In this document: in pieces, positions 3,250 through 35,955 of the stretch
How positions within the stretch are numbered: position 1 is the stretch's first letter
Layout: every line of letters starts with the position of its first letter
NCBI GenBank assembly: GCA_019232625.1
Contig: JAFANP010000056.1
Span: forward strand, 1 to 35,955
Length of the DNA: 35,955 nt
Source of the DNA: Alphaproteobacteria bacterium
GTDB taxonomy: Bacteria > Pseudomonadota > Alphaproteobacteria > Sphingomonadales > Sphingomonadaceae
Direction of reading: 5' to 3'
Program-made: the position numbers and the translations under genes
The notes under the pieces: generated by a model
Seen by the model: only the letters and a program-made list of their open reading frames with translations
Databases searched by the model: none
Told to the model about the DNA's origin: nothing

Positions 3250-3648
3250 TCAATTTTCGTCGTTTCCCAGGTCCTGCGCGACCTTGGGGGCGCGGAGCAG
3301 GGCGTCGATATGGCTGCCCTCGTCGAAGCTCTCGTCGGCGAGGAACTTCAGCTTGGCGGCATATTTGGTGTTCACCCGGGCCGCCACCGAGCGCTGGAGG
3401 AAGGCGGTATGGGTGCGCAGGGCCTTGAGCACCACCGCCTCGTCCTGGCCGAGCAGCGGCTTCACGAACACGGTGGCGTGGCGCAGGTCGGGCGACATCC
3501 GGACCTCGGTGACGGAGACGAGATGGCTTGCGAGCACCTCGTCGTGAACGTCGCCGCGCATGAGTATGTCGGACAGCGCGTGGCGCACCTGCTCGCCGAC
3601 GCGCAGCAGGCGAACCGACTTTCCTTCAGGGCTTTCGTTGCGTCTCAT
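3250..3648 (-). CDS. rbfA: 30S ribosome-binding factor A
   Basis: The 132-residue product is a small KH-fold protein that binds immature 30S subunits and helps mature the 16S rRNA 5' end. Family features are the [13 protein letters not shown] helix, [25 protein letters not shown] and the [28 protein letters not shown] segment near the end. Its place after infB is the standard gene order. A hairpin-rich repeat fills the 97 bases between infB and this gene. Confidence 0.97.
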
Positions 3649-25549: not shown

Positions 25550-26590
25550 TTATTCGGCGGCCACGCCCAGCGACAGGCGGCGGGCCTCGGCGGCCTCGCT
25601 CTCCCCCTCGGCATCGACCGGCTCCGCCGAGTCCCGCTCCTGCGCGAACCAGGCGGCGGTGGCTTCGAGGCCCTGCTGAAGCGTCACCTTGGGTTCCCAG
25701 CCGAGCAGCGCCTTGGCCCGGCCTATGTCGGGGCGGCGGCGGCGCGGATCGTCGATGGGCAGCGGCCGATAGGAGATCCGGGAGCGGGAGCCGGTCATCC
25801 GAAGCACCCGTTCCGCGAGGTCGCTGACCGTGAGCTCCACCGGATTGCCGAGATTGACCGGCCCGTCCCGCACGTCGCTCGCCATCAGCCGCATCAGCCC
25901 ATCGACGAGGTCGGAGACGTAGCAGAAGCTGCGGGTCTGGCTTCCGTCCCCGTAGATCGTCACGTCCTCGCCGGCGAGCGCCTGGCAGATGACGTTCGAG
26001 ACGACGCGGCCGTCGTCGGGCCGCATGCGCGGGCCGTAGGTGTTGAACAGGCGCGCCACCCGGACGTCGGCGCGGCGGAGGCGCTGGAAGTCGAAGGCCA
26101 GCGTCTCCGCCGCGCGCTTGCCTTCGTCATAGCAGGCGCGCGGGCCGGTGCAGTTCACCCAGCCGCGATAGCTTTCCGTCTGCGGATGCTGCTCCGGGTC
26201 GCCGTAGACCTCGCTGGTCGAGGTGAGGAGGAACCGGGCGCCCTTCTCCTCCGCCAGGCGGAGGAGGTTGCGGGTGCCGACCACGTTGGTCAGCATCGTA
26301 TGCTCCGGGTCCATCTGGTAGTGAGGCGGCGAGGCGGCGCAGGCGAGATTGTAGACGTGGGAGAACCGGCGCCGCGACACGGCGGCGGGAAGCTCGTCGA
26401 TCACGTCGGCCTCGACGAAGTCGAACCGGGATTCGCCGTGCAGGTGCCTCAAATTGCCGGGCCTGCCCGTCGTAAAGGAATCGAGGCAGACGACGGTCGC
26501 CCCCTCGGCCAGCAGCGCATCGACGAGGTGCGAACCGATGAAGCCGGAGCCGCCCGCAACCAGTGCGATCTTTGAATTTGCAGTTCTCAC
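25550..26590 (-). CDS. UDP-glucuronate decarboxylase (UDP-xylose synthase)-like enzyme
   Basis: The 346-residue short-chain dehydrogenase-type enzyme has the NAD-binding GGSGFIG (13-19), the UXS-specific NLACAASPPHYQMDP stretch, TSTSEVYGDPEQHPQ, and RACYDEGKRAAE with the catalytic pair Y154/K158. The sequence RLFNTYGPRMRPDDGRVVSN also fits UXS. The expected reaction is UDP-glucuronate to UDP-xylose and CO2 in the cytoplasm. The start is GTG with an AAGGAG site. It is the last gene of the minus-strand glycan operon, 57 bases after the third CgeB-like gene. The C-terminal 25 residues are acidic and not conserved. Confidence 0.92.
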   Translation of the reverse strand: MRTANSKIALVAGGSGFIGSHLVDALLAEGATVVCLDSFTTGRPGNLRHLHGESRFDFVEADVIDELPAAVSRRRFSHVYNLACAASPPHYQMDPEHTMLTNVVGTRNLLRLAEEKGARFLLTSTSEVYGDPEQHPQTESYRGWVNCTGPRACYDEGKRAAETLAFDFQRLRRADVRVARLFNTYGPRMRPDDGRVVSNVICQALAGEDVTIYGDGSQTRSFCYVSDLVDGLMRLMASDVRDGPVNLGNPVELTVSDLAERVLRMTGSRSRISYRPLPIDDPRRRRPDIGRAKALLGWEPKVTLQQGLEATAAWFAQERDSAEPVDAEGESEAAEARRLSLGVAAE

Positions 26591-26647
26591 AGCCAGCTCC
26601 TTAGCTCGTTAATCCGGAAAACGGCAGCAGGCTTTGCGCCGTCCTGA

Positions 26648-27742
26648 TCATCCCGCCGTCTCCAGCCGCAGCCCCACCTTGGGACGGGCGGCTTCGGCGA
26701 GGTACGATTCCAGCTCGCCGGCGCGGTGGGCGGCGGTGTGCGCGGCGAGCACCCTGGAGCGCGCCGCCGCGCCGATCGGCGCCGCGAAAGCCGCGTCGCC
26801 GCGCTCCAGCAGGGCGACGACCTCGCCGGGGCCATCGGCGAGCACTATCTCCCGCCCCGGCACGAACAGCTCGCTCAAGCCCTCCCACCGGTCGGAGACG
26901 ACGGGGACGCCGCAGGCCGCCGCCTCGAACAGACGGACCGACGGCGACCAGCCGGCGGCGATCATGTCGGCGCGGGTGACGTTGAGGGTGAAGAGCGACG
27001 CGGAATAGAAGGCGGGATGCCCCGCCGGCGGCAGATGCTCGATCCGCTCGACGTTCGCGGGCCAGGCGATGTCGCCGGGATATTGCGGCCCGGCGACGAC
27101 GAACCGCCGCCCGGGAAGGCGCCGCGCCGGCTCGATCAGCAGCCGCTCGAGGGTCGGCTGCCGGTCGGGGCTGTAGGTGCCGAGATAGGAGAGGTCCCAG
27201 CGCTTGGGGATGTCGAGCGGCGGATAGGCCTCGGGATCGACCGAGCAATAGAGCGCCCGCGCCGCCGGGCTGTGGAAGCGCCGCTCGATGTGGCGCAGGG
27301 TCGGCCCGCCGGTGAACGACAGATAGAGGTCGAAGCCCGGTATCACTTCGGGCGAGAGATATTCGAAATCGCCGCGCTCCAGCTTCGCCAGGGTGACGGG
27401 CGTGTCGATGTCGTAGAAGGCGGCGACGCCGCGGGCATGGTCCTGCACGAAGCGGGCGACCGCGACTCCTTCGGGCACGTAGGAGCCGACCATCACCGCG
27501 TCGGCCTCCGCTATCTCCCGCCGCCAGAGCTCCAGCCCTTCCAGGTCGGCATAATATTCCAGCCGGCAATAATCGGGCCGGGTGACGTCGCGATGGTCGC
27601 GGTACCAGGGCATGTCCCGCTCCAGGAACATGATGTCGTGGCCGCGGGCGGCGAACGCCTTGAGCAGCGCGCGGAACGTCGTCGCGTGGCCGTTGCCCCA
27701 GCTCGACGACAGCGAAAGGCCGAGGACGACCAACTTCATCAC
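26648..27742 (-). CDS. CgeB-like glycosyltransferase (third in tandem)
   Basis: The 364-residue product belongs to the CgeB-like group (COG4641) of GT-B proteins. The N-terminal half has a Rossmann-like start (KLVVLGLSLSSSWGNGHATTFRAL) and a KRWDLSYLGTYSPDRQP segment; the C-terminal half has the nucleotide-sugar site RADMIAAGWSPSVRLFEAAACGVPVVSDRW. It overlaps its upstream paralogue by four bases (ATGA). The donor and acceptor are unknown. It resembles the two genes upstream but is clearly diverged, so it likely adds a different residue to the same glycan. Confidence 0.85.
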   Translation of the reverse strand: MMKLVVLGLSLSSSWGNGHATTFRALLKAFAARGHDIMFLERDMPWYRDHRDVTRPDYCRLEYYADLEGLELWRREIAEADAVMVGSYVPEGVAVARFVQDHARGVAAFYDIDTPVTLAKLERGDFEYLSPEVIPGFDLYLSFTGGPTLRHIERRFHSPAARALYCSVDPEAYPPLDIPKRWDLSYLGTYSPDRQPTLERLLIEPARRLPGRRFVVAGPQYPGDIAWPANVERIEHLPPAGHPAFYSASLFTLNVTRADMIAAGWSPSVRLFEAAACGVPVVSDRWEGLSELFVPGREIVLADGPGEVVALLERGDAAFAAPIGAAARSRVLAAHTAAHRAGELESYLAEAARPKVGLRLETAG

Positions 27743-28827
27743 GCGGCGCTCCGCGCGGGCTGGCGCGCTTCGCGGAACAGTGCGTCGACCTGCTCGCCGC
27801 GATGGGCGTAGCTATGCTCGGCGCGGACGCGCGCCAGCGCCGCACGGCCGATCGCCCGCGCCCGCTCGGGCGTCAGCGACTCGACGATTTCCGCGACATC
27901 CCGGCCGTCGCGGGCGACGAGGACCTCCTCCTGCGGCGCGAGGAACAGCTCGATGCCTTCCCATGCGTCGGTGATCAGGCAGGCGGCGGCGCCGGCCGCC
28001 TCGAAGACTCGGGTGGCCGGCGAGAAGCCGACATGGGCCATCGAATCGCGCGCCACGTTGAGCACCGCCAGAGGCGTGCAGTTGAAGGCGTTGTGCTGGT
28101 GCGTGTAGACGTGGCCGAGGTGCCGGACGTTGCCGGGCATCGCCTTCGACTCCCAGCCGTTGCCGCCGATCAGGAAGCTCCGCTCGGGCTGCAGGGCGGC
28201 GGCGCGGAGGAAGAATTCCTCCACCCGCGCCTCCCGATCCGGGAGGCGGTTGCCGAGGAAGGCGAGGTCGGCGAAGAAAGCGGGATCGGGCGCGACGGGG
28301 TGGTGGGTCGCCGGATCGAGCGCATTGTAGACGGGGACGCAGCGGCGCGCGCCGAAGCCCTGATAGGCGTCGATCACCGGCGGCCCGCCGCCGTAGGTCA
28401 GGACCATGTCGAGGCTCGGCAGCACCCGGCGGACGACGTGGCTCTCGTCGGCGCGCATCTCGTCCAGGGTCGCTGCGGCATCGACGTCCCAGAAGAGCCG
28501 CAGCGCGCCGTCGCGGCTATGCTCGACTATGCCTTCCAGCAGCTCCGTGTCGAAGACGCCGACGCCGCTCGCCTTGACGACGATATCGGCCTTGCGGGCG
28601 TCCTCGAGGACTTGCCGGAGCCCTTCCGGAGTCGCCGGATAGACGATCGATCTCGCCCACTCGGGGGGATCGATGTCGCGATGCCGCTGACGCTCGAACG
28701 CGTCGGGCTCGTAGAAGGTGATGTCGTAGCCGCGCCCGGCAAGGTCGCGCAGCAGCCCGCGATAATAGGTCGCAGCGCCGTTCCAGTAGGAGGAAAGAAG
28801 GCTGGAGCCGTAGAAAGCGATCTTCAT
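27739..28827 (-). CDS. CgeB-like glycosyltransferase (second in tandem)
   Basis: The 362-residue GT-B protein starts KIAFYGSSLLSSYWNGAATYYRGLL, has DLAFLGNRLPDREARVEEFF in the middle and ARDSMAHVGFSPATRVFEAAGAAACLITDAWEG as the C-terminal donor site. This matches the COG4641/CgeB-like architecture. The ATG overlaps the stop of the preceding gene by four bases (ATGA), and its own stop overlaps the next start. The sugar is unknown. Its opening and donor loops are closest to those of the 26648-27742 product. Confidence 0.85.
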   Translation of the reverse strand: MKIAFYGSSLLSSYWNGAATYYRGLLRDLAGRGYDITFYEPDAFERQRHRDIDPPEWARSIVYPATPEGLRQVLEDARKADIVVKASGVGVFDTELLEGIVEHSRDGALRLFWDVDAAATLDEMRADESHVVRRVLPSLDMVLTYGGGPPVIDAYQGFGARRCVPVYNALDPATHHPVAPDPAFFADLAFLGNRLPDREARVEEFFLRAAALQPERSFLIGGNGWESKAMPGNVRHLGHVYTHQHNAFNCTPLAVLNVARDSMAHVGFSPATRVFEAAGAAACLITDAWEGIELFLAPQEEVLVARDGRDVAEIVESLTPERARAIGRAALARVRAEHSYAHRGEQVDALFREARQPARSAA

Positions 28828-29936
28828 GCGGTGAGCCTCAATTCGGCGGGCGCGGCGAAGCGCGCGACGATGGCGATCAGCTCGTCGGCGCGGTGGCCGC
28901 AGGTGTGGCGGGCCCGGATCGTCTCCAGGCCGCTTCTCGCCAGCGCCGCCCGCAGCTGCGGATCGTCGCGGAGCGCCAGGAGGTGACGGGTCATCTCCTC
29001 GCCGTCGCGGGCGACGAGATAGTCTCGGCCGGGCCGGAACAGCCCCTCTTCATCCTCCCAGGGAGCGGAAACGAGCGGGATGCCGCACGCCATCGCCTCG
29101 AACGGCCGGATCGTCGGGATGCCCGGCAGCAGCTTCGTGTAGTAGCGGCGCGGCACGTGCACCGTCGCCAGGTGGCGGGCGAAGACCTCGGGGGCGCGGG
29201 CGTTGGGAAGCCAGCCGTGGTAGCGGCCGCCGTAGCGGCGGACCGTGGCCTTGGCCGTCTCGTGGTAGCGCACCCCGTAGACGTCGAGGCCGAGGCCGGC
29301 GGCGCGGGCGGGCCGGAAGAGGAATTCCTTGAGCTCCTTGGTGCGCTCGCCCTCCCCCCAATTGCCGATCCAGACGAGGCCCGAGCGCGCCACCTCCTCG
29401 GCCGGGGGATGGAAGCGGCGGATATCGGCGGCCTCGTGCCAGACGAAGACGCGGTCCCCCCAGCCCCAGCGGCGATAGACCTGGGCGAGCGTCTCGCCGA
29501 AGGCGAGGACGCCGTCATAGGCGCCAAGGTCGTAGGCGCGCATCTCGGCCCGCGCCGAGACCGCGCGGTGATGAGTGTCGTGGAAGAGCAGGGTGAAGCG
29601 GCCGCCGGCGGCGCGCAGGCGCCCTAGCCCGGCGACCAGCGCCGGATCGTTCCACTCATGGGCGATGACGAGGTCGGCGTCGCCGACCATCGCGCGAAGA
29701 TCCGCGTCTTCGCCATAGGGCCGCGAAGACAGCTCGGGGTAGAGCCGTCGATAGGAGTCCAGCCCCTCCTCGCCATGGTCCTTGAGGAGGTTCTCGAGGC
29801 TCCAGGCGCCCTCAGGCTCCCAGACCTCCACCTGATGGCCGCGCGCGCCAAGCTCGCTGAGGACGCCGCGCAGGAAGTGGGCGTTGCCGTGATTCCAGCA
29901 TGAGGCGAGGGAATGGGTGAAGTAGCGGATCCTCAC
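28824..29936 (-). CDS. CgeB-like glycosyltransferase (first in tandem)
   Basis: The 370-residue GT-B protein opens RIRYFTHSLASCWNHGNAHFLRGVL and contains SGLVWIGNWGEGERTKELKEF and the donor site LPGIPTIRPFEAMACGIPLVSAPWED. It is the most diverged of the three CgeB-like proteins. The start is GTG, overlapping the stop of the GT4 gene by four bases (GTGA). It sits in a chain of genes with 4-base overlaps from 31051 to 27739, which implies tight translational coupling and one assembly pathway. Confidence 0.85.
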   Translation of the reverse strand: MRIRYFTHSLASCWNHGNAHFLRGVLSELGARGHQVEVWEPEGAWSLENLLKDHGEEGLDSYRRLYPELSSRPYGEDADLRAMVGDADLVIAHEWNDPALVAGLGRLRAAGGRFTLLFHDTHHRAVSARAEMRAYDLGAYDGVLAFGETLAQVYRRWGWGDRVFVWHEAADIRRFHPPAEEVARSGLVWIGNWGEGERTKELKEFLFRPARAAGLGLDVYGVRYHETAKATVRRYGGRYHGWLPNARAPEVFARHLATVHVPRRYYTKLLPGIPTIRPFEAMACGIPLVSAPWEDEEGLFRPGRDYLVARDGEEMTRHLLALRDDPQLRAALARSGLETIRARHTCGHRADELIAIVARFAAPAELRLTA

Positions 29937-31047
29937 GCCGCCCTCGCGGCCAGGACGGGGCGACGCACGGCGGGGAGGAGGCGGCGGTAGAGCGAGGCCA
30001 TCTGCGCCGCCATCGCGTCGGGCGTGTAGCGCGCCGCGCGCTCGGCCGCGGCGGCACCGCGCACGGAACGCTCGAAATCGTCGCTGACGAGCCCGGAAAC
30101 GGCCTCGACGTAGGCCTTCTCGTCACGCGCGGGCACGTACAGGGCAGCCTCCCCCCAAAGCTCGCGGAAGGTCGGGATGTCGGAGAGGATGAGCGGGCAG
30201 CCCGCCGCCGCCGCCTCCAGCACCGCCAGCCCGAACGGCTCGTAGAGCGCCGCGGAGACGAACACCGGCCGCGCCGACAGCCAGCGCGCCATCTCCTCCT
30301 CGCCCAGCGCGCCGAGGCAGTGGATATGATCGAACATGACCTCGGCGCCGTTCGGCCCCTTGAGCGGACCGGCGGCGCGGACTGGAACCGCGACCGACCC
30401 TGCCGCGGCGTCGACGGTGGCGAGGTTCTTGCCCTCGTCCCAGAGACGGCCGGCGGTGAAGACGAAATCGTGGACGGCGCCGCGCCTCAGCGTCAGCGGC
30501 GTGCGGCCGTTGTGCACCGTCGCCGGCGCCGCCGCCAGGCCGTAGAGGCGCCGGACGCTCTCGCCGAAGGCGGCCGTCGGCGTCACCACCGCCTCCACCT
30601 TGCGCAGCGCCGAGCCGACAAGCGCCGTCCGCCAGGCGAAGTCGGCCGGAAGCGCGGTGCCGTGCACCGCCTCCCACCAGGTCGCGACGCAGCTGTGATG
30701 GACCGCCACCACCGGCACCGGGAAATCCGCCAGCGCCGCCAGCGCCGGCGCGTTGAGCTGGACGAGGTCCACCTCCGTCTCGCGGGCGAGCGCGGCGATG
30801 CCCTCGGCCGCCTGCCGAAGCGCCGCCTCGTTCTCGGCGAGCCAGTCGAGCGCAAGGCCGGTGTCGACGAGCTTGAGGCCCGGCACCGTCGAGGCCGACT
30901 GCCTCTGCTCCTCGGACGGCGAGGGACCGGTGACGGCCAGGACGGTGGCGACGCCGAGGCGGGACAGTCCGCGCGCGAGGTCGATCGAATATTGCCACAC
31001 CCCGCCCACCGCGTCGGCGGTGACGAGGACCCGCAGATGGGCGGCGG

Positions 31048-31051
<4 letters not shown>
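29933..31051 (-). CDS. Family 4 (GT-B) glycosyltransferase
   Basis: The 372-residue product has the N-terminal donor/acceptor domain start LRVLVTADAVGGVWQYSIDLARGL and the C-terminal retaining-enzyme signature EPFGLAVLEAAAAGCPLILSDIPTFREL (E-x7-E). FTAGRLWDEGKNLATVDAAA marks the second Rossmann domain. A family 4 retaining transferase using a nucleotide-sugar is expected; the substrate is unknown. The GTG at 31051 overlaps the stop of the upstream epimerase gene by four bases (GTGA). Confidence 0.9.
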
Positions 31052-32175
<1,124 letters not shown>

Positions 32176-32230
32176 CGGGTTGCTCTCCGGCTTCGGCAGG
32201 GAAAGGGAGGACGGGGCGCCGCGCGCGCGC

Positions 32231-33346
32231 TCACGCCACGAGCCCCCGGGACTCGAGCTCGGCCCGGGCCTGGTCGACGCGGTCGTCGGCGGTCTGCGCG
32301 GCGACCCATTCGGCGAGCTCGGCCAGACCCTCGCGGAAATCCTTGCGTGCCCGGAAGCCGAGGCCTGCCTGCGCCCTCGCCGTGTCGCAGAAGCAATGGC
32401 GGATGTCGCCGATGCGGGTCTTCCCGACGATCTGCGGCGCGATGTCGTTCTTGCCCATCGCGCGGGCGAGCTCCTGAGCCACCTCCGTCACCGAGCGGTC
32501 CTCGCCCGAGCCGACGTTGAACACGCCGCCCGCGGCCTGCGGCAATTCGAGCGCGTCGGCGAAGGCGCGCGCCACGTCGCCGACATAGACGAAGTCGCGC
32601 CGCTGCCCGCCGTCCTCGAAGATCATCGGCTGCTGCCCGTTGAGAAGGCGCGAGGCGAAGATGGCGAGGACGCCGGTATAGGGATTGGAAAGCGCCTGGC
32701 CGGGCCCGTAGACGTTGAACAGGCGCAGGCAGACGCCTTCCATCCCATAGGCTTCGCTCATGATGAACGTCGTGCGCTCCTGCACATATTTGCCGAGCGC
32801 GTAGATCGAGGCGAGATCGGGCCGCTTCCATTCCGGCGTGGCGACGGGGATGAGCGGACGGCCCCCGGCATCGACCGGATCCCAGCCCTGGGCGTCGCCG
32901 GTGCGGGGCAGGCGCTTCGCGTCCTCGACGGCCTTCCCGTCGGGATCGAGATAGAGGCCCTCGCCGTAGATGCTCATCGAGGAGGCGGTGACGACGCGGC
33001 GGACGGGCCTGTCGATCAGCTTCTCGAACAGCACGGCGGTGCCGACGTCGTTGACCGACGTATAGCGCTCCACAGCGTACATGGACTGGCCGACGCCCAC
33101 CTCGGCGGCGAGGTGGACCACGCTGTCGACGCCCTTCAGCGCCCGGGTGACGGCATCTCCATTGCGGACGTCGGCGCGGATCAGCTCGACCCCCGGATCG
33201 AGGCCCTCGGGACGCTCCCGGTCGCCGTGCACCTGCTCGATCAGCGAGTCGAGGATGCGGACTTCATGACCCCTGGCCTGAAGCTCCCTGGTGACGGCAC
33301 GGCCGATGAATCCGGCGCCGCCGGTGATCAGAATCGTCTCCGGCAA
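32231..33346 (-). CDS. NAD-dependent nucleotide-sugar epimerase (dTDP-rhamnose 4-epimerase-like)
   Basis: The 371-residue product has TGGAGFIG (8-15), the VHLAAEVGVGQSMYAVERYTSVN region, TASSMSIYGEG and YALGKYVQER as the Y-x3-K site. GQRRDFVYVGDVARAFADAL and the LRLFNVYGPGQALSNPYTGVLAIF stretch fit the extended SDR epimerases such as those acting on dTDP-rhamnose. The substrate is not certain. The start appears to be a TTG at 33346 directly before PETILITGGAGFIG. It is the first gene of the minus-strand operon, reading away from the shared promoter region. Confidence 0.85.
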   Translation of the reverse strand: MPETILITGGAGFIGRAVTRELQARGHEVRILDSLIEQVHGDRERPEGLDPGVELIRADVRNGDAVTRALKGVDSVVHLAAEVGVGQSMYAVERYTSVNDVGTAVLFEKLIDRPVRRVVTASSMSIYGEGLYLDPDGKAVEDAKRLPRTGDAQGWDPVDAGGRPLIPVATPEWKRPDLASIYALGKYVQERTTFIMSEAYGMEGVCLRLFNVYGPGQALSNPYTGVLAIFASRLLNGQQPMIFEDGGQRRDFVYVGDVARAFADALELPQAAGGVFNVGSGEDRSVTEVAQELARAMGKNDIAPQIVGKTRIGDIRHCFCDTARAQAGLGFRARKDFREGLAELAEWVAAQTADDRVDQARAELESRGLVA

Positions 33347-33543
33347 AGTAGAACCCCCAATCCATTAATCTATGTTATTAATGTATATTTATCAGTAACT
33401 TGCATCTTCTTCTTCAACCGTGGCGAAACACGGCCGCCTGTTCTTTGTTCCGCCCGCGCGCCCGTCGCGGGGGAGGGAACAAGCGCCCGCCGCGGACGGT
33501 TTGGCGGCCGCAGCTGAATCGTTTCAGGACGGTATCGAAAGGC
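33347..33543. promoter_or_regulatory. Divergent promoter region of the glycan locus
   Basis: The stretch at about 33360-33410 is strikingly AT-rich (ATTAAT repeated at 33364 and 33375, then TATATTTATCAG) in an otherwise GC-rich window and lies between the two divergent operons, so it probably holds both promoters. Further right, TTGTTCC (33445-33451) and CCCGCG (33453-33458) pair with CGCGGG (33467-33472) and GGAACAA (33476-33482), a hairpin in the leader of the plus-strand operon. Confidence 0.55.
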
Positions 33544-34143
33544 GTGACCGCGACCCTCCTCCTCATCCGCCATGCCGCCCATGTGGAGCTGGGGCGGACG
33601 CTCTCCGGACGCAGGCGCGACGTGGCGCTGAGCGGCGAGGGGCTCGAGCAGGCGGAGATCGTTTCCGACCTGCTGGCGGTCGAGCCGCTCGTCGCGGTCT
33701 ATTCGAGCCCGCGCGAGCGCGCCTGGTACACGGCCCGGGCGATCGCTGACGCCCATGAGCTCCAGGTCGACGTGGCCGACGATCTGGACGAGGTCGATTT
33801 CGGCGACTGGACGGGCATGTCGTTCAACGACCTGGAGGGCGATCCGGCCTGGAACGCCTGGAACGAGGAGCGCGCCACCGCCCGCCCGCCGGGCGGCGAG
33901 AGCATGGCGGAAGCGGTGGCCCGCGCCGCCGCCGCGCTGCAGGCGATCGCCGCCGCGCACCCCGGCGGCACCGTCGCGTGCATCAGCCATTGCGACATCA
34001 TCCGCGGCCTCATCGCGCATTATCTCGGGCTGCCGCTCGGCAACCTGCTGCGCTTCGACATCGACCCCGCGTCGGTCTCCCGGCTGGCGCTGGGAAGCTG
34101 GGGCGCCCGCATCATGACCGTCAACGAGAGGCTCTATCAATGA
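33544..34143 (+). CDS. Histidine phosphatase family protein
   Basis: The 199-residue product belongs to the phosphoglycerate mutase-like histidine phosphatases. It has LLLIRHAAH with the phospho-accepting H10 (RHA instead of the usual RHG), SSPRERAWYTA, E83 in DEVDFGDW as the likely acid, and ISHCDIIRG with H149. A phosphorylated sugar or inositol is an attractive substrate in view of the neighbours, but this is inference. The GTG at 33544 gives the best family start; its ribosome binding site is weak. Its stop overlaps the next start (ATGA). Confidence 0.85.
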   Translation: MTATLLLIRHAAHVELGRTLSGRRRDVALSGEGLEQAEIVSDLLAVEPLVAVYSSPRERAWYTARAIADAHELQVDVADDLDEVDFGDWTGMSFNDLEGDPAWNAWNEERATARPPGGESMAEAVARAAAALQAIAAAHPGGTVACISHCDIIRGLIAHYLGLPLGNLLRFDIDPASVSRLALGSWGARIMTVNERLYQ

Positions 34144-34922
34144 ACGTCGCCGCCCGAACCCTCCAGCCGGACGTTCGCGGGATCAGGGAAAAGGTCGACG
34201 CGCTCGGCCCCTGGTTCCACAATATCGACCTCGGCGGCGTCTGGACCGCGCCCGACCACTTCCTAGGCGACTATCCGGGGGTGAAGTTCCGGCGCTTCGC
34301 GCCGCACCTCCCCGACGACCTCTCCGGCAAGAGCGTGCTCGACATAGGCTGCAACGCCGGCTTCTATTCGATGGAAATGATGCGGCGCGGCGCCGAGCGG
34401 GTGGTCGGCATCGACAGCGACGAGCGCTATCTCGCCCAGGCCCGCTTCGCCGCCGAGACGCTGGGCCACGCCCGTATCGAGTTCCGCAACCTCTCCGTCT
34501 ACGACGTCGGCGCGCTCGGCGAGCGGTTCGACCTCGTCATCTTCATGGGCGTCCTCTACCATCTTCGGCACCCCCTGCTGGCGCTCGACCTCATCCACGA
34601 GCATGTCGCCGCGGACATCCTCCTCTTCCAGTCGATGCAGCGCGGCTCGGCGCGGGTGCTTCCGCTCGAGGAGGATTATCCGTTCGAGGAGACGGCGACG
34701 TTCTGGGAGACGGGCTTTCCCAAGCTCCACTTCATCGAGCGGGAATATGCCCACGACTGGACCAATTGGTGGGTGCCGAACCGCGCCTGCGCCGAGGCCA
34801 TGCTGAGGGCGTCCGGCTTCCGCATCGAGACGCGGGCGGAGGAGGAGGTCTACATTTGCCGCCGCGCGGAAATGCCTTATGGGGCGTGGGGCACGGGCGC
34901 GGTCTATCCGCGGAAGGGGTGA
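34140..34922 (+). CDS. SAM-dependent methyltransferase (Rta_06860/TIGR04290-like)
   Basis: The 260-residue product has the class I SAM motif VLDIGCNAGFYS (66-77), GIDSDERYLAQARFAAETLG as the following acidic segment, and FDLVIFMGVLYHLRHPLLALD as a third motif. It closely resembles, from memory, the methyltransferase family TIGR04290 (Rta_06860 family), seen beside glycan genes in several proteobacteria; this assignment is unverified. The acceptor is unknown. It shares a 4-base overlap with the phosphatase gene and lies three bases ahead of the glycosidase-like gene. Confidence 0.88.
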   Translation: MNVAARTLQPDVRGIREKVDALGPWFHNIDLGGVWTAPDHFLGDYPGVKFRRFAPHLPDDLSGKSVLDIGCNAGFYSMEMMRRGAERVVGIDSDERYLAQARFAAETLGHARIEFRNLSVYDVGALGERFDLVIFMGVLYHLRHPLLALDLIHEHVAADILLFQSMQRGSARVLPLEEDYPFEETATFWETGFPKLHFIEREYAHDWTNWWVPNRACAEAMLRASGFRIETRAEEEVYICRRAEMPYGAWGTGAVYPRKG

Positions 34923-34925
34923 GAC

Positions 34926-35843
34926 TTGTCCATCGAAGCGGCGATGATCTGGAACGAGCCCAACAACAAGTCGCATTGGGACCCCGAGATCGACCCCGAA
35001 TGGACGATGTTCGGCGACACCGTGACCGCCGCGGCCAAGGCGATCGCCTCCGTCAACCCGGCCGTGAAGCGGGTGCTCGGCGGCATCTCGCCGATCGATC
35101 CCTTCTTCATCCGGCGCCTCGAGGGCTACGGCGTGCTCGACCATGTCGAGGTGATCGCCGTCCACGGCTTCCCGCTCGACTGGAACCTGTGGCCGATCGA
35201 CGCCTGGCCCGACAAGATCGCCGAGATCGAGGCGGTGGCGCCCGATCACGAGATATGGGCGACCGAGGTGGGCGTCGGCAGCTTCGGCGCCGAGGAGGTC
35301 CAGCTGTTCGGCGTCGAGCGCACCGCCGAGCTGCTCGTCGGCCGCGTGCCGCGGGTCTTCTGGTATTCGCTGTTCGACCTGCCGCAGAGCTGGGGCGCGA
35401 CGACGCGCCACCGCGAAGCCGAGGGATCGAGCTATTATCGCCACTTTTACATGGGTTTGATCCGCGAGGACGGTACGCCGAAGCTTGCGCTGGAGCGCTT
35501 TCGGGCGCACAGCCCCGCGATGGGCATCATGCAGTGGTTCCACTTCGAGGATCCGCGGCTGGACGACGCCGTCCGGTGGCTCCGGCGGCTCGGCGTGACC
35601 CATCTTCGCACCGGCCTCAGCTGGGCGGACAGCTACCGCCCGGGGTGGGAAGCCTGGTTCGACCGGCAGATGGAAGCTTTAGAAGAGTTTGAAACGACCG
35701 TGACTTTCTGCTTCACGCCCGACTCGCAGGGGATCGCCCCCCACCACACCAGTCCCCCGAAGGATCCGATGTATTTCGCTGATTTCTGTGCCCGCATGAT
35801 CGAGCGCTACGCCCCCGCCCAGCAGCAGAAGGCCGTCGCCTGA
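34926..35843 (+). CDS. Glycosidase-like (GH-A barrel) protein with apparent circular permutation, annotated as beta-xylosidase type
   Basis: The 305-residue product contains clan GH-A-like motifs in an unusual order. IWNEPNN near the N-terminus supplies the expected acid/base E11, and WATEVGVGSF supplies a nucleophile-like E114. A terminal-strand segment VFWYSLFDLP and EDGTPKLALERFRAH follow, which usually mark the end of such barrels. Then comes a segment that usually starts a barrel: DDAVRWLRRLGVTHLRTGLSW and TVTFCFTPDSQGI (about 213-275). So strands 1-3 appear to follow strands 4-8. No signal peptide is visible. The start is TTG, with GGAAGGGG seven bases upstream. It may act on, or only bind, the cluster's glycan. 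Confidence 0.85.
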   Translation: MSIEAAMIWNEPNNKSHWDPEIDPEWTMFGDTVTAAAKAIASVNPAVKRVLGGISPIDPFFIRRLEGYGVLDHVEVIAVHGFPLDWNLWPIDAWPDKIAEIEAVAPDHEIWATEVGVGSFGAEEVQLFGVERTAELLVGRVPRVFWYSLFDLPQSWGATTRHREAEGSSYYRHFYMGLIREDGTPKLALERFRAHSPAMGIMQWFHFEDPRLDDAVRWLRRLGVTHLRTGLSWADSYRPGWEAWFDRQMEALEEFETTVTFCFTPDSQGIAPHHTSPPKDPMYFADFCARMIERYAPAQQQKAVA

Positions 35844-35955
35844 TGAGTCTGCATGACCCCAAGGCGATCAACGTCGCCATCGTCGGCGTGGGCAACTGCG
35901 CGAGCTCGCTCGTGCAGGGCCTTGCCCATTACCAGAATGGCGGCGCCAACGAGCA
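35843..35955 (+). CDS. ino1: myo-Inositol-1-phosphate synthase, N-terminal part (partial)
   Basis: The first 37 residues lie in the window: MSLHDPKAINVAIVGVGNCA, then SSLVQGLAHYQNGGANE. The VAIVGVGNCASSLVQG motif is the NAD-binding start of the prokaryotic (actinobacterial-type) inositol-3-phosphate synthase, which converts glucose-6-phosphate to 1D-myo-inositol 3-phosphate. The ATG overlaps the glycosidase-like gene's stop by one base (TGATG). The gene runs off the window, so full length and active-site residues cannot be checked. Confidence 0.85.
   Translation, partial: MSLHDPKAINVAIVGVGNCASSLVQGLAHYQNGGANE

Follow-up and report, generated by a model that had tools for sequence, protein, structure and literature searches.

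What is made, and when, by a compact group of genes that joins glycosyltransferases and nucleotide-sugar enzymes to a methyltransferase, a glycosidase-like protein and an inositol-3-phosphate synthase (Ino1)? The group lies at positions 25550-35955 of a contig of an alphaproteobacterium of the family Sphingomonadaceae (GenBank assembly GCA_019232625.1, contig JAFANP010000056.1); the whole contig, 35,955 nucleotides long, is the stretch of DNA analysed here, called the window below, and its end (contig C21 of genome G000) falls inside the Ino1 gene. Open reading frame (ORF) coordinates and domain scans find, just where the original prediction had put them, eleven genes in two tightly packed divergent operons, in which neighbouring genes overlap by a few bases or lie less than 60 bases apart. 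The left operon runs from gG back to gA and carries the nucleotide-sugar enzymes and four glycosyltransferases; the right operon runs from gH to gK, which encode a histidine phosphatase, the methyltransferase, the glycosidase-like protein and Ino1.

The answer that we favour, and hold to be rather probable, is that the region would encode a stress-induced cytosolic pathway leading to an O-methylated, pentose-containing glycoside that, in most lineages seen, would also contain inositol. The computations that carry this answer show co-conservation of the genes, enrichment of a promoter motif, a circular permutation with conserved catalytic glutamate positions, a gene fusion, and co-occurrence with Ino1.

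The protein gJ (34926-35843, forward strand), which the original prediction called glycosidase-like, begins at the motif WNEPN, and its last 100 residues resemble strands 1 to 3 of a barrel. We take WNEPN to be the acid/base glutamate motif that follows strand 4 in clan GH-A, and TEVG to hold the nucleophile glutamate after strand 7. The strand order is 4-5-6-7-8-1-2-3, residues ~3-194 corresponding to strands 4-8, and residues ~197-297 to strands 1-3. Aligned with the domain of a relative in canonical order (genome G373), gJ scores 247 in its native order and 368 when rotated at residue 192, the maximum for shuffled sequences being 62. PslG, the nearest relative of gJ with a solved structure, is the best match of a profile made from 37 gJ sequences, and is hit twice with the order of the two pieces exchanged (overall E 9.5e-7): profile positions 3-153 fall on PslG 132-301, and positions 200-295 on PslG 25-130, this second piece being weak (8.8 bits).

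The AlphaFold2 (AF2) model of gJ (pLDDT 89) has eight alternating strands and helices, forming a (beta/alpha)8 barrel. Among the 50 Foldseek matches listed for this model, no full-length sequential match to the Protein Data Bank (PDB) is found (TMq at most 0.49); the poorer model of a canonical relative (pLDDT 67) has PslG at rank 1, with TMq 0.61. Residues Glu11 and Glu114 are invariant in the 37 aligned gJ sequences, among them that of Sorangium, whose identities to the window protein range over 62-81%. The canonical counterparts, Glu120 and Glu227, are kept in 7 canonical relatives. Judged by sequence and model, gJ is a circularly permuted PslG/GH39-like barrel that starts at strand 4, which corrects the original prediction. 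A literature search on PslG together with circular permutation found nothing.

Relatives in canonical order were found in G373 and G324, and a second search added five more at full length and a weaker one. In the four cases tested, the canonical domain shares a single stop-free frame with a domain orthologous to gF, the second short-chain dehydrogenase/reductase (SDR2) of the window; at L179, the range examined held a stop. A tree built from rotated sequences groups the 90 permuted tips in a single clade separate from the 8 canonical tips, which, under a midpoint root, agrees with a single permutation event. In a tree of 85 SDR2 sequences, seven fused genes and two unfused ones form a clade with support 0.92. 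The unfused pair comes from Sinorhizobium meliloti and L128, both of which carry a permuted gJ, and the tree suggests that each of the two forms of gJ has taken the place of the other. Adding L179 enlarges the clade to 20 tips and lowers its support to 0.35.

Do the eleven genes belong together? The methyltransferase gI (34140-34922, forward strand), a member of the TIGR04290 family of SAM-dependent enzymes (375.9 bits, cut-off 300), was the bait for two comparisons. Named genomes were scanned with a methyltransferase profile, and the best 80 of at least 590 stretches (575 with a relative at E 1e-3) were kept as named loci; this sample is biased to the window's kind, and short contigs and 10 kb flanks make all its counts lower bounds. 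Over the 80 loci, gJ is found in 73, gB in 66, the phosphatase in 64, gF in 61, gG and gE in 60 each, gD and Ino1 in 57 each, gC in 56 and gA in 34. The left operon is represented by four or more of its seven genes in 57 loci; among the 66 loci that span at least 17 kb, the count is 51. Phosphatase, Ino1 and gJ occur together in 50 of the 80. All 73 copies of gJ, 294 to 337 residues long, have the permuted order, and the canonical form is found in none of the 80 loci. The closest named relatives of gI, among these best 80 loci, include Sphingomonas parva, Sphingosinicella and Allosphingosinicella.

The second comparison covers the window's own genome and 59 relatives, of which 12 (own included) have TIGR04290 over its cut-off. 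In ten of the eleven other neighbourhoods, most of the genes are present and arranged alike, with the exceptions that L044 has no match for gA, gE and gH and that the stretch fetched for L034 ends inside gB; the eleventh, G024, is a contig of 13.8 kb with the methyltransferase and gJ only. These ten neighbourhoods and most of the 80 named loci agree with the single unit of the original prediction, which is co-conserved and not a chance grouping. In a phylum-wide sample, gJ was matched in 14 of 398 genomes, with 12 strong full-length matches (own genome included), and the neighbourhoods share the gene set.

Other genes travel with the set. A zinc dehydrogenase (ADH) and a Gfo/Idh/MocA oxidoreductase are both present in 33 of the 80 loci, and sit on another contig in the window's genome; a nucleotidyltransferase is found in 25, a GT9-like protein in 21, a relative of TIGR04295 (B12 radical SAM) in 17, and, less often, an F420-hydrogenase-beta-like protein in 9 and a polysaccharide pyruvyltransferase in 8. 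Outside Alphaproteobacteria, Sorangium has the methyltransferase, a permuted gJ, CgeB and the nucleotidyltransferase, and two short Acidobacteria loci have the methyltransferase, CgeB and the nucleotidyltransferase without gJ. The set is also carried by plasmids: a match to gJ occurs in 146 plasmid records and covers 80% or more of the protein in 97, and in the rows listed an annotated TIGR04290 gene often adjoins it. Whole neighbourhoods were viewed on Sphingobium yanoikuyae pKN1, on a S. meliloti p_2 and on pSymB of S. meliloti 1021, which holds the gene set at about 242.4-260.4 kb. No match to gJ was found among 50,697 phage records.

What could switch these genes on? The original prediction spoke of a shared AT-rich promoter region; the divergent region 33347-33543 is indeed shared, and is AT-rich in its left third only. 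Its GC-rich part holds two sites of the form GGAAC-N-GTT that resemble EcfG-type promoters, one per strand: GGAAC-N17-GTT at 33427-33451 on the reverse strand, ahead of gG-gA, and GGAAC-N18-GTT at 33476-33501 on the forward strand, ahead of gH-gK. For the general-stress sigma factor EcfG of Sphingomonas melonis, the motif GGAAC-N17-20-GTT has been published (PMC6599016).

We searched operon heads, each taken as the 250 bases before a gene together with its first 20 bases, in the window and the 80 loci. The motif with a gap of 17 or 18 occurs in 72 of 142 heads, whereas 50 dinucleotide shuffles average 0.82 and never exceed 4. The heads with the motif are 25 of 53 heads of gG, 14 of 31 of gH, 19 of 31 of gK, 12 of 12 of gI, and two of the dehydrogenase. 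When all combinations of a 5-mer, a gap of 13 to 20 and a 3-mer are compared de novo, GGAAC-17-GTT is the top dyad, with 48 heads. The 142-head count replaces an earlier run (70 of 205 heads, against a mean of 1.7 and a best of 14 for 89 control motifs) that took in 58 heads of gE, artefacts of its variable N-terminus. The opposite strand gives counts of 43 in the earlier run and 40 in the 142-head run; this is not a clean control, because the promoters are divergent.

Counted by locus, the motif is present in 47 of the 67 loci with an examinable head, window included. With taxon bins set by hand on the earlier head set, it is found in 16 of 18 loci of Rhizobiales, 25 of 32 of Sphingomonadales plus one locus marked '?' (Allosphingosinicella), 1 of 1 of Rhodobacterales, 4 of 16 of Acetobacteraceae/Rhodospirillales/Azospirillales, and 0 of 3 outside Alphaproteobacteria. 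In the 32 kb of the pSymB copy of S. meliloti (L194), the motif is matched eight times: gG has two sites ahead of it, the dehydrogenase, Ino1 and the pyruvyltransferase have one each, a further site falls within Ino1, and the last two lie beyond the gene set. The window's own genome has one match to NepR (PF18557), with 28 bits against a cut-off of 25.7. From the motif, the locus probably belongs to the general stress regulon, a link that the original prediction did not make.

In the text covered of the regulon papers, the gene set is not named (PMC6599016, PMC3616915), and a term search of PMC6180224 for a set of pSymB gene numbers gave no hit. The published EcfG-regulated glycosyltransferases #3505-3509 of S. 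melonis were considered as the same locus and rejected, since their gene order, judged by the listed names, differs. The literature covered is open-access main text, and an account of how the S. meliloti copy is regulated may have been published elsewhere. As a side observation, three canonical-form loci (L174, L175 and L176) have a topoisomerase IB-like gene beside gA, in two of them between gA and the methyltransferase; topoisomerase IB is an EcfG-regulated gene listed for S. melonis (PMC6599016).

The inositol part of the answer comes from gK (35843-35955, forward strand), identified by its full-length relatives as the first 37 codons of Ino1, the contig end cutting off the rest. In relatives, Ino1 is ~368 amino acids long, with one frame, in L039 (11512-12621, genome G023), broken by a stop after 105 codons; that of relative L035 scores 126.3 bits on PF01658, whose cut-off is 27. 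Looking genome-wide, 27 of 28 genomes that carry permuted gJ encode Ino1, versus none of 7 with only the canonical form, G764, which holds both forms, being counted as permuted. Among the 59 relatives, Ino1 is found in 11 of 11 genomes with the locus versus 16 of 48 without it; the own genome, in which Ino1 is split over contig ends, is left out of this count.

Inositol synthesis thus follows the module of the permuted form rather than with the left operon. Since seven genomes with the left operon have no Ino1, in six of which the methyltransferase is seen beside that operon, inositol is probably not universal to the system; the inositol link of the original prediction is supported by the co-occurrence of Ino1 with the permuted gJ. 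The dehydrogenase pair was considered as proof of inositol oxidation and rejected, its best scores being far below the cut-offs and the pair also adjoining a canonical-form locus where Ino1 is lacking; in the window's genome, a motif lies near the pair on the opposite strand only. At the contig ends of this genome, the last 147 bases of the window (35809-35955) are identical to the end of contig C20, where no gJ lies upstream, and the C-terminus of Ino1 ends two further contigs, C19 and C22: the genome has either two near-identical Ino1 stretches or a tangled assembly graph.

A number of observations weigh against our answer. The methyltransferase profile was built mostly from permuted-form loci, so the sample may hold too few of the canonical form; for the permuted gJ, AF2 had an input of 37 fairly similar sequences. 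The gene gA, from which the pentose is predicted, is seen in just 34 of the 80 loci. On the side of inositol, the Fisher tests for the two contrasts given above (nominal p 1e-6 and 5e-5, in that order) ignore kinship: three of the seven canonical-only genomes are of one genus, and of the 28 permuted-form genomes ten belong to the window's genus and five to another single genus. One permuted-form genome, G582, has no Ino1, Ino1 is also present in genomes without the locus, and the dehydrogenase pair, whose best names are related to inositol, adjoins the canonical-form locus of a genome without Ino1 (L072, in G324). As for regulation, the motif counts take no account of kinship between loci, 20 of the 67 loci have no exact site (mostly Acetobacteraceae, with some Sphingomonadales and Methylobacterium), just 2 of 15 dehydrogenase heads have one, and canonical-form loci have the motif before gG in 4 of 8 cases (L071, L072, L178 and L179).

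With these points in mind, how would a stress-induced glycoside pathway run? The region would be one functional unit of the alphaproteobacterial general stress response, in which stress would release sigma EcfG from NepR and lead to transcription of both divergent operons. We infer the induction by stress in this organism, each substrate, the order of the steps, and a small soluble or lipid-linked product rather than a polymer; product and reactions are proposed from family resemblance, and regulation from the motif.

On the reverse strand, the product of gA (25550-26590; SDR1, PF01370/PF16363) is closest in phmmer to human UDP-glucuronic acid decarboxylase 1 (4e-102, the next family at 2.6e-47), and stays below the cut-offs of the NCBIfam models listed. 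This likeness upholds the xylose supply of the original prediction, which the count of 34 loci weakens; UDP-xylose would be the product of gA. The plain epimerase first seen in gF (31048-32175) is now better described as a relative of CDP-tyvelose 2-epimerase (phmmer 1.3e-82 versus 2.2e-34 for the next family), and would yield a C2-epimerised nucleotide sugar. The first gene of the left operon, gG (32231-33346; SDR3), is GalE-like in domain scans and sequence search, and would yield a C4-epimerised one; all three would be soluble enzymes.

Three CgeB-like glycosyltransferases, gB (26648-27742, PF13524 2.2e-40, conserved), gC (27739-28827, 7e-38) and gD (28824-29936, 8.7e-36), and the GT4 enzyme gE (29933-~31051, PF13692/PF13439, a GTG start at 31051 being placed from the overlap with gF), also on the reverse strand, may assemble a short glycoside, which gI would O-methylate. 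In lineages that have Ino1, gK and then the phosphatase gH (33544-34143, forward strand, branch 1, PF00300 5.9e-49) would make inositol, the action of gH on inositol phosphate being conjectured from its family. The role left to gJ would be that of a cytosolic retaining clan GH-A glycosidase-type enzyme that trims or transglycosylates an intermediate; in origin it would be kin to the canonical PslG/GH39-like domain, through a circular permutation between barrel strands 3 and 4.

Could the genes instead make a polysaccharide or glycolipid of the cell surface, with the lipid carrier and the export machinery encoded at other places in the genome? Pathways for surface glycans often employ CgeB and GT4 enzymes, PslG belongs to exopolysaccharide synthesis, and some loci add the polysaccharide pyruvyltransferase, GT9-like and F420-hydrogenase-beta-like genes counted above. 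However, a simple hydropathy scan, with the Ino1 of relative L035 standing in for the cut one, predicts no membrane-spanning segment in any of the 11 core proteins, no obvious signal peptide is seen in them, and the core has no initiating phosphoglycosyl transferase domain. No Wzx, Wzy, Wzz or ABC exporter was recognised among the 25 most shared neighbour clusters, of which eight representatives were searched and the others inspected, and polytopic ORFs, not identified singly, make up 31 of 670 neighbours, in 22 loci. The window genes scanned, up to the contig end, gave no flippase, polymerase or chain-length gene (Wzx, Wzy, Wzz) either, the neighbours having been searched in part with Wzx/Wzy models; in the genes and clusters covered there is no sign of the standard capsule or lipopolysaccharide (LPS) locus that the original prediction had also failed to recognise. 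A further idea was bradyrhizose, an inositol-like sugar in the LPS of Bradyrhizobium. That no gene for export, a flippase or a lipid carrier was recognised in the shared set speaks for a small product rather than a capsule, though not decisively, and we regard the surface explanation as possible but rather unlikely.

Two further explanations are weaker still. The Ino1 of relative L035 is of the actinobacterial type (its closest solved structure is 1gr0, 1.5e-121), and the GT4 protein is weakly similar to MshA, which brings to mind an inositol-based low-molecular-weight cofactor of the mycothiol type. Both likenesses fall well short of the curated models, with 38.5 against a cut-off of 462.5 for the window GT4 (MshA, TIGR03449) and 448.7 against 638 for that Ino1 (TIGR03450); moreover, the conserved set contains no recognisable deacetylase or Cys ligase, and four or more glycosyltransferases with three nucleotide-sugar enzymes exceed what the pathway needs. 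On these cut-offs we rejected such a cofactor, and its probability is very small. A sceptic could also see in gJ a degenerate or scaffolding remnant, and in the GGAAC/GTT sites promoters in name only: the best Pfam glycosidase score of the window protein, on the GH39 family PF01229, is 10.7 bits against a cut-off of 26, so that no curated glycosidase family is reached, and the exact motif is absent from 70 of the 142 operon heads. Against this, arrangement and length are kept in 73 of 73 copies and both Glu11 and Glu114 in all 37 aligned sequences, and 72 heads with the motif compare with 0.82 by chance; this explanation seems to us improbable, and we return to the stress-induced glycoside pathway.

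Some observations at the edges of the loci deserve mention. The left flank of the group in the window is housekeeping-like, with Lnt-, MetK- and VOC-like ORFs named by eye. The plasmid copy of S. yanoikuyae pKN1 (L191, 806-1336 and 18862-26713) is flanked by genes for manganese catalase, DUF892, DUF4142 and peroxiredoxin, and looks like a stress island on a plasmid. A conserved protein of ~600 amino acids (L062:14919-16718, L034:11977-13812, L194:11927-13603) adjoins the locus in Sinorhizobium, Roseomonas, Sphingosinicella and others; the two copies tested have no Pfam match, and a DSP-type phosphatase is sometimes next door. That phosphatase was considered as a stand-in for the histidine phosphatase and rejected, as L034 and L077 hold both. 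In L036 and L078, from one genome, the GT4 and SDR3 genes each match as three separate pieces, which suggests frameshifts or sequencing errors. Finally, L138 and L141 (Methylobacterium), L081 and L114 have the methyltransferase without gJ or the left operon within reach; in the last two its neighbours are GT9 and DUF6165 genes, which may point to another use of this enzyme.

How does the locus compare with known systems? Like the PslG/GH39-type retaining glycosidases, gJ has a (beta/alpha)8 barrel with two catalytic glutamate positions after strands 4 and 7; it differs in its strand order, its size of ~305 amino acids, the absence of a visible signal peptide and of an accessory domain, and scores below every Pfam cut-off. 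The likeness to the EcfG/RpoE2 regulons of S. melonis Fr1 and S. meliloti consists of the promoter motif, NepR in the genome, and the stress-type genes (manganese catalase, DUF892, topoisomerase IB) beside some copies. While gF is by a wide margin closest to CDP-tyvelose (paratose) 2-epimerase, no other CDP-paratose pathway gene was recognised in the set, and other genomes have the gF orthologue fused to a glycosidase domain. The methyltransferase belongs with TIGR04290, and a relative of TIGR04295 occurs in those 17 of the 80 loci and not in the window copy; both are 'hypothetical equivalog' models, and their names, with '_oligo' in that of TIGR04295, suggest that NCBI curators had noticed parts of the cluster.

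Literature searches found no mention of either accession in the papers covered, and nothing for CgeB with EcfG or for CgeB with inositol-3-phosphate synthase and glycosyltransferase. The individual families are known; as a unit, the locus is not described in the open-access text covered. We can put forward, tentatively and as something short of probable, that the product is an undescribed general-stress metabolite, a methylated cyclitol glycoside, from a pathway common to Sphingomonas, Methylobacterium, Bradyrhizobium, Microvirga, Roseomonas and Sinorhizobium meliloti. On this view, the GH39-like glycosidase left an epimerase fusion and underwent circular permutation when the pathway gained inositol, and would be the first natural case of such a permutation known in this glycosidase group.

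A whole pathway could in this way be assigned, by its sequence, to the EcfG regulon, where many genes lack a function: about 40% of the EcfG-dependent genes of S. melonis have no assignable one (PMC6599016). The assignment is directly testable, as S. meliloti 1021 carries the locus, and both a mutant in rpoE2 and transcriptomes for rpoE2 are reported for it (PMC3616915). Recognition of the permuted barrel would, in addition, set right the automatic names 'beta-xylosidase' and 'glycosyl hydrolase' that gJ bears in annotated plasmid records. Finally, the family offers a natural experiment, in which canonical and permuted versions of one enzyme domain occur in the same gene set, and inositol synthesis tracks the permuted one.

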